The position numbers and the translations under genes are program-made. From Devosia sp. Root436 (lineage in GTDB: Bacteria; Pseudomonadota; Alphaproteobacteria; Rhizobiales; Devosiaceae): a DNA stretch of 64,000 nucleotides. The notes under the pieces were generated by a model. That model was given only the letters and a program-made list of their open reading frames with translations. It made no database searches and was not told the origin of the DNA. Positions 14,899 to 17,800 of the stretch are shown here, one piece after another. Where the stretch lies: the NCBI RefSeq assembly GCF_001426345.1, contig NZ_LMEM01000014.1, forward strand, positions 62,001 to 126,000, in the 5' to 3' direction. Position 1 is the stretch's first letter. Every line of letters starts with the position of its first letter.

Positions 14899-17800
14899 AT
14901 GCACCTCCTCTCCGCCCAGGCCGGCGCCATCCAGCAGGAAGGCGAAGCCATCGATCTCAACCAGCGCCCCGGGGCGCTGGTCTTTGCCTCATCGGCCGAT
15001 AGCGAACTGGCCATGCTGGCCGGCGCCGCCGACCGGGCAGGGGAGTTCCAACTCCGCCTCGCCAACACGCTGCGCCTTTCCAACAATCTTTCGGTCGATC
15101 TGTGGCTGGAAAAGACCGTCGCCCAAGCGCGCCTCGTCGTCCTCCGTCTCATCGGCGGCGCCGCCTATTTCCAATACGGCGTCGACGAACTCACCGCCCT
15201 CTGCGCCAACCACAAAATTCCCCTCGTCCTCCTCCCCGGCGACGCCAACCCCGACCCCATCCTGCAATCCCGCTCCACCATCCACCCCGGCGACTGGACC
15301 CGCCTCCACAACCTCTTCACCGCAGGCGGCCCCGACAACGCCGATACGATCCTCAAAGCATTCGCAAAGCTAGCGGCTCCTTCCCCTTCTCCCCTTGAGG
15401 GAGAAGGTGCCCGAAGGGCGGATGAGGGGTCTCTTGCTTCCCTTCACCCCCAACCCTTCGCCCGCTTCGGCCTATGGCACCCCAAGTCGGGCATGACCGA
15501 CGAACCCGGCCTGCGCGCGCTCCATGGCAGCGCCACCTACATCCCCATCCTCTTCTACCGCGCCGCCCTCGAAGGCGCCGGCACCGCCACCATCGCCGCC
15601 CTCATCACCGAGCTCGAAACCCAGGGTCTCGCCCCGGTCCCGCTCCTCGTCTCCTCCCTCAAGGAAGCCGCCTGCGCCCGCTTCGTGCAGAACGCGCTCG
15701 CGGCCTTCCCGCCCGCCGCCATCTTCAACCTCACCGGCTTCGCCCTCGGCATCGACAGCCTCGATGAAAAGTCCAACCCCTTCGCCACATCAGACGCCCC
15801 CGTCATCCAGCTTATCCAGTCCGGCCGCTCCGAGGCCCAGTGGCTCGCCGACAGCCAGGGCCTCTCCTCCAAGGACATGGCGATGTTCCTCGTCATGCCC
15901 GAAGTCGACGGGCGTCTCGGCGGCCTCATCGTCGGCCACAAGGCCGACGCCGTCTGGCACGAGCGCTGCCAGGTTCCCCTCACCGCCTACACCCCCAACC
16001 CCTCCGGCATCACCCGCGCTGTAGCCTTGGCGAAAAACTGGTCCCGCCTCCGCGCCACCCCGCGCGCCGAGCGCCGCATCGCCATTGTCCTCGCCAACTA
16101 CCCCATCCGCGACGGGCGGTTGGCGAATGGCGTCGGCTACGACGCCCCTGAATCCACGGTGCGGATGCTGCAGGAACTGGACAAGGCGGGCTACACCCTC
16201 TCACCTCGCCCCTTCGGGGAGGGGTCGGCGGCGCAGCCGCCGGGTGAGGGGGCCTTCCCTTCGGACGCCGTCAGCCTCATGGCCGCCCTCCAATCCGGCC
16301 CCACCAACGCCAATCCCCAGCGCGGCTCATCCCCCGCTATCCTCCCGCTCGCCCGCTATCGCGAACTCTTCGCCAAGCTCCCAGCCAAAATCCGCACCGA
16401 AGTCACCGCCCGCTGGGGCGATCCCGCGACCGATCCCTTTATGCGCATCGAGGCAGGCGCAGACCACCTGATTACAAATCAGGTGTTCCATCTCCCCGCC
16501 CTTATCTTCGGCAACATCACCATCCTGCTCCAGCCCGCCCGTGGCTACCACGTCGATGAAACCGCCAGCTACCATGACCCGGCCCTGGCCCCGCCCCACG
16601 CCTATCTCGCCGCCTATCTCTGGCTGCGCCACGACTTCGGCGCCCATGCCCTGATCCACAATGGCAAGCATGGCACGCTCGAATGGCTTCCCGGCAAGGC
16701 CACCGCGCTCGATGAAGCCAGCTATCCCGACGCGCTCTGGGGCCAGTTGCCCCATCTTTATCCCTTCATCGTCAACGACCCCGGCGAGGGCACCCAGGCC
16801 AAGCGCCGCGCTGGCGCCGTCATCATCGACCACCTCGTGCCCCCGCTTACCCGCGCCGAAACCTATGGTCCCCTCAAGGACCTCGAGGCGCTGCTCGACG
16901 AGTATTACGCCGCCTCCGGCATGGACCGCCGCCGCCTGGCCGACCTCCGCCGCCACATCCTCGATTTCGTCAGCGACACCAGGCTCGACCGCGATATCGG
17001 CCTGCCCGAGGACGAGACGGCCGCCCTCATCAAGATCGACAACTTCCTCTGCGACCTCAAGGAAGCCCAGATCCGCGACGGCCTCCACATCTTCGGCCAA
17101 TCGCCCCAAGGCAATCTCGAACGCGACCTCGCGGTCGCCCTTGCCCGCGTCCCCCGCGGCGACGGGGCAGGGGAGGCCTCCCTCATCCGCGCCCTGGCCG
17201 ATGACCTCAAGCTCGGCTTCGATCCGCTGACCGCCAAGCTCGGGACGCCGTGGACGGGGCCCACCCCCACCCTCATTCTCTCGCCACACGGGGGAGGGAA
17301 GCCCGCTCAGAGTCTCCCCAAGAATTCTGAAGGTGCGGCCCCCTCGCCTCCCTCCCCCTTGTGGGGAGGGATTGAGGGTGGGGGTGGGCCACGCACTCTG
17401 GGCGATGTGGTGGAACATCTCGAAAATCTGGCCGGCGCCCTCGTCGACGGCACTCTCTCGCCCGCCCCCGACTGGACCGCCAGCGCCGCCGTCCTCGCCA
17501 CGGTGCAATCCACCATCCGCCCCCGCCTCGCCGCCTCCGGTCCAGCCGAAATCGCCGCTCTCCTCGCCGGCCTCGATGGCAAATTTATCGCCCCCGGGCC
17601 CTCCGGCGCCCCCTCGCGCGGCCGCCTCGACGTCCTGCCCACCGGCCGCAATTTCTATTCCGTGGATTCCCGCGCCGTCCCCACGCCCACAGCCTGGGAA
17701 CTCGGCAAGAAATCCGCCGAAAGCCTCGTCCTCCGCCACCTGCAGGATCACGGTCACCATCTCCGCGCCGTCGCCCTCTCCGTCTGGGGTACGGCCAATA

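Follow-up and report, generated by a model that had tools for sequence, protein, structure and literature searches.

Palindromic repeats that lie in frame within unrelated housekeeping genes have been described as the Rickettsia palindromic elements (RPEs) and Wolbachia palindromic elements (PMC10969869, PMC3767692, citing Ogata et al. 2000, 2002). In the parts of these papers available to us, such repeats sit at recurrent sites in orthologues, contribute peptides to exposed regions, include different repeat groups near one site, and occur in frame within genes for conserved proteins, features that they share with the repeats found here in the CobN and IleS genes of Devosia. The described elements differ in length, being 100-150 bp (PMC3767692) compared with about 47-56 nt for the Devosia unit. 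They also differ in setting; their hosts are obligate intracellular bacteria and the parts of the papers available name no partner gene, whereas Devosia is free-living and its units are linked to a nuclease gene. By description, the Devosia units would work like RPEs at the protein level.

Two other systems invite comparison. REPINs of the REP-RAYT type (PMC3116915) are short palindromes of high copy number, mostly arranged as extragenic inverted doublets, that adjoin and co-vary with a candidate mobility gene, and the Devosia units resemble them on both counts (74 of 84 copies in doublets). In contrast to REPINs, the genome studied here lacks the defining RAYT, the partner is a DUF559 nuclease, and units also lie within coding sequence. 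Inteins and free-standing homing endonucleases (PMC3943268, PMC1635734), as presented in the available portions of those papers, share with a nuclease ORF found in CobN of several Devosia the in-frame position, the patchy occurrence among sister species, and the restriction of one nuclease clade under purifying selection to one site. Unlike inteins, as these portions describe them, the CobN insert is flanked by REP units and no splicing domain was seen in it by reading.

The DUF559 nucleases of Devosia are Vsr-like proteins of the PD-(D/E)XK type. YcjD is a member of PF04480, the domain family of Devosia DUF559. The YcjD-like PD-(D/E)XK proteins (PMC1189080) are predicted nucleases, and so is Caulobacter VsrA (PMC12907096; DUF559/PF04480), which differs in having been studied as a mismatch-repair-type enzyme, REP repeats being unmentioned in the available part of its description. 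A literature search in a limited library, which is not proof of novelty, found no paper tying DUF559 to REP elements.

The window analysed here is a stretch of 64,000 nt from a Devosia genome of 3.9 Mb (G000). It contains genes for CobN (14899-18807, + strand), a cobaltochelatase subunit of 1302 aa with three REP-derived inserts, and for the isoleucyl-tRNA synthetase IleS (62-3484, + strand). Both ORFs are authentic, as PF02514 covers residues 140-1292 of CobN in one frame (E=0) and IleS matches PF00133; the true IleS start is probably downstream of the ORF start at 62, since about the first 100 residues of the ORF are without conservation. The CobN segment at 15380-15435 and the IleS segment at 1899-1954 (both + strand) are 100% identical over 56 nt, and comparison of the translations showed that the two copies use the same unit frame. 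An earlier note, made from the DNA letters of the window, had claimed that CobN and IleS carry the same repeat in the same reading frame and encode the same peptide from it, which our results confirm. Although the identity is far above chance expectation, a family of 79-86 copies per genome accounts for it trivially. The CobN segment is a solo copy of unit A, the name used here for this REP-like palindromic unit of high copy number, and it is an insertion relative to empty CobN orthologues.

Copies of unit A were located by pattern search and then read as stretches. The core gave 79-86 matches in the genome and the reversed-pattern control gave 0, and aligned copies define a 47-nt unit with two palindromes. 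Most copies (74/84) are followed, after a spacer of 36-48 nt, by an inverted partner, and these doublets are mostly intergenic and have a REPIN-like architecture. For example, the window holds an intergenic doublet on the - strand (3500-3653, with unit A at 3607-3653), a diverged intergenic copy with its inverted partner (36555-36601, +), and a variant copy with the middle palindrome GCCCCGAAGGGGC, also with an inverted partner (45543-45598, +). Ten copies are solo, among them those in IleS and CobN, at least one that adjoins a DUF559 nuclease domain, and several just ahead of start codons. Of the roughly 84 copies only 4 lie inside genes, at least three of them solo, and coding-frame scoring together with Pfam leaves IleS, CobN and a DUF559 ORF as the only internal hosts in the genome; most long ORFs across unit A reached it only by extending upstream of the true start of the gene, and these were excluded from this count. 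The explanation that stops bar doublets from genes was rejected, as 68 of the 74 doublets are open in some frame.

Solo copies of unit A were also seen directly before start codons (L040:3005, L049:1993, L054:2994, L077:2990), in the interval that separates the upstream gene from the ribosome-binding region, where an effect on translation initiation is possible. Rfam returned no match for unit A; its sole match was a cobalamin riboswitch (RF00174, 127 bits; 12624-12837, +) upstream of the cobalamin gene cluster to which CobN belongs. A second palindromic family, with GTCATTCCCGCGAAAGCGGGAATC and GTCATTCCGGCGAAGGCCGGAATCC types and often in inverted pairs, occurs in the window at 11058-11170, 11583-11623, 20091-20202 and 26376-26466, and another inverted repeat family (TGCCACGCCCTCGTGGTTCGAGGC / GCCTCGAACCACGAGGGCGTGGCA) occurs at 30849-30979 and 48695-48817.

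The units have entered genes in frame at recurrent loops of IleS and CobN. In 9 of 50 Devosia sequences, the IleS loop between YMD(R/K)xI and DTLR carries differing REP-like units, some forward and some reverse; in the rest it is empty or non-REP (empty, as xGxxG, in about 40 of the 50). Unit A occupies it in G000, G004, G014 and G024, other forward REP-like units in G043 and G046, and reverse-strand units in G019, G031 and G055. On an IleS tree built without the loop, occupancy requires at least eight changes of state, a count that cannot tell gain from loss, and the occupied G024 is sister to the empty G034. A simple target-site duplication was looked for at IleS but is not claimed here, because the direct repeats around the G000 copy, such as CTCTTCCC, are inconsistent and the codons of empty sites differ; neither a target-site duplication nor a transposition event was resolved for the REP-like units.

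In CobN, three loops hold REP-like inserts whose occupancy differs among Devosia species. The solved structure of CobN (PDB 9uk9) has alignment gaps at all three sites, and the empty Devosia orthologues are gapped at the first. At this first site (15380-15435 in the window), L112 has unit A, L107 and L119 have unit A together with a reverse unit, many species have units of other families, and L121, L122, L125 and L134 are empty. The inserts of L107 and L119 match the left end of a DUF559 cassette in G004 (L197), as if the left arm of such a cassette had landed in CobN. The second insert (SPRPFGEGSAAQPPGEG; 16197-16252, +) marks the site at which other Devosia carry a whole DUF559 domain, and the third (17255-17393, +) consists of two inverted units with arms at 17255-17302 and 17346-17393.

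Frame use was tallied across Devosia loci for REP-like units with a TGAGGG tail and a one-frame coding signal on both sides. Among 22 such units, 19 are read in the frame shared by CobN and IleS (F1), 2 in a reverse frame (R0) and 1, a CobN copy, in another forward frame (F2), so that the over-representation of one frame, which the earlier note had proposed as a check, is indeed found. Gene-internal copies are thus biased to the frame reading ..GEG..ADEG; many of them share descent, so the bias rests on few independent cases and is moderate evidence. The shared frame is open, as the note had said, but this does not distinguish it, as five of the six frames of the unit core are open and stops occur in one forward frame only. 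For the CobN/IleS pair alone, five open frames make a same-frame coincidence about 1 in 5. Across loci, for the same reason, the bias exceeds what the absence of stops would give.

The peptide from the shared frame is hydrophilic, as had been claimed, with 6% hydrophobic residues. The IleS loop uses only two of the five open frames, and these are precisely the ones with the least hydrophobic content (6% ILVFMWYC residues in each), the other three having 19-31%. Of about seven IleS events left once shared descent is allowed for, four are in F1 (P about 0.03) and three in the reverse frame; all seven thus fall in the two hydrophilic frames (P about 0.002, for frames singled out after seeing the data). 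Frame choice in the IleS loop therefore fits a filter at the protein level, in which insertions would survive when they add a soft linker. The note had further suggested selection for a tolerated frame or a unit adapted to be translated. The former stands as a bias (19/22 in F1 and, at IleS, only low-hydrophobicity frames) but not as exclusive use, since the IleS loops of G019, G031 and G055 are read in another frame and one CobN copy in a third. The latter is plausible, since DUF559 cassettes read unit A in the same frame F1.

DUF559 genes are present in 47 of 61 Devosia genomes, and the Y1 transposase/RAYT domain (PF01797) is absent from G000 and from 58 of the 61 genomes in all (3 positive). 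Of the 120 Devosia DUF559 domains with enough flanking DNA, 107 lie within 150 bp of a REP-type hairpin on one side or both, 74 of these being flanked on each side, and the remaining 13 have no unit nearby. By comparison, hairpins lie on both sides of 0 of 42 window genes, a small control set in which 12 had one on one side, and on both sides of 0 of 64 nearby segments. The same link is seen in 16 of 24 cases from other genera of the order; long DUF559 ORFs in those genera, examined as further host genes, were gene-terminal fusions or read-through ORFs and not internal inserts in the cases read. The spacing of the upstream unit is specific to the subfamily (20, 27, 48, or 40-73 nt, with 43 and 73 among the last), and a reverse unit lies 12 nt downstream of DUF559 at 18 loci. 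The unit subfamilies track DUF559 clades closely, with 4 changes compared with 18.5 when labels are shuffled. Upstream of its own DUF559 clade, unit A is in F1 in 16 of 16 cases, accompanied at 9 loci by a reverse unit in R0, and F1 and R0 are the same two frames as in the IleS loop. As an association, then, units flank DUF559 genes in F1 and R0 at subfamily-specific spacing where RAYT is absent. At L093:2975-4195 (-), a DUF559 gene linked to unit A has a unit-A copy on each side, the two sharing one orientation and one frame; elsewhere the flanking copies are inverted.

Genomes with a unit-A DUF559 cassette have a median of 19 unit-A copies and those without have 2 (P 7e-6, kinship ignored), and after subtraction of the cassette copies the difference persists (P 1e-4, kinship again ignored). 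The number of unit-A copies is not significantly correlated with the total number of DUF559 genes (rho 0.25, P 0.07), and G055, which lacks DUF559 yet has 28 unit-A copies, is an exception.

In at least eight Devosia, the second loop of CobN contains a whole DUF559 domain with flanking REP peptides in one open frame, giving CobN ORFs of up to 1725 aa, and G000 has only the REP scar at this site (16197-16252). By reading alone, these inserts consist only of REP peptides and DUF559. The embedded domains group together as a single clade (support 90), and their pN is much lower than their pS, which places them under purifying selection. Their presence changes at least five times on the CobN tree, which well-supported branches force, and DUF559 identity shows no correlation with CobN identity (rho 0.08). 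For example, the domain is present in L125 and absent from L134, although their CobN DNA is 93.5% identical. A homing element would be expected to show this patchy pattern; the alternative is that an old insertion has been lost repeatedly.

Taken as a whole, we give a probability of about 0.68 to the reading that REP-like units enter genes, that their frame is filtered by the softness of the peptide, and that DUF559 acts as their mobility or homing partner. Units would insert in any orientation and phase, and the survivors would be those that add a multiple of three nucleotides and give a soft, low-hydrophobicity linker in a surface loop. With a DUF559 nuclease as the mobility or homing partner of the unit family, the preferred frame of a unit would be the frame of its own cassette. 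Movement of the units, translation of the inserts and homing in CobN are what we infer from these patterns. An account by coincidence and purging, with insertion anywhere, a 1-in-5 shared frame and no adaptation to translation, appears unlikely. It draws on the five open frames, the reverse-strand units read in another frame in the same IleS loop, and the mere 4 of about 84 unit-A copies inside genes, but it leaves unexplained why 19 of 22 copies genus-wide share a frame, why 7 of 7 events at the IleS site fall in the two low-hydrophobicity frames, and why unit A is in F1 in all 16 DUF559 cassettes.

Two further accounts would leave DUF559 without a part in mobility. DUF559 genes might be passengers that build up next to REP elements, permissive intergenic sites being the only ones in which either survives; the genes are small and patchy, and 13 of 120 domains have no nearby unit. 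We consider this less likely again, given the fixed distances (20, 27, 48, 43 and 73 nt upstream, and 12 nt downstream for the reverse unit at 18 loci), the clade-specific pairing of unit and nuclease with the reading frame preserved, and the nuclease and units embedded in CobN under purifying selection. Least probable, in our view, is a classical REPIN system in which the units were spread by a RAYT (Y1 tyrosine transposase) that has since been lost or was overlooked, with DUF559 as a bystander. The doublet architecture fits REPINs, but PF01797 is missing from G000 and 58 of 61 Devosia genomes, though many have tens of near-identical copies, and the gene flanked by units at subfamily-specific spacing is DUF559. 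Beyond the preferred reading of gene-entering units with a nuclease partner, we put forward tentatively, and at somewhat less than even odds, that DUF559 and REP-like palindromes form an undescribed mobile system in Hyphomicrobiales. The palindrome-bounded nuclease cassette would be the full element, doublets and solo units would be its miniature derivatives, and the system would be built for read-through in genes, up to a splice-less homing nuclease in CobN.

Rickettsia and Wolbachia are the chief known sources of in-frame palindromes. Here such repeats occur in a free-living genus, one of their hosts is an essential tRNA synthetase, and the explanation offered for frame choice, at the level of the protein, is directly testable. 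Through its link to the units, DUF559 becomes a candidate for the enzyme that moves REP elements in Devosia, where RAYTs are mostly lacking, and a common but barely studied nuclease family gains a possible role. The nuclease embedded in CobN would be an example of a homing-like element that needs no splicing.
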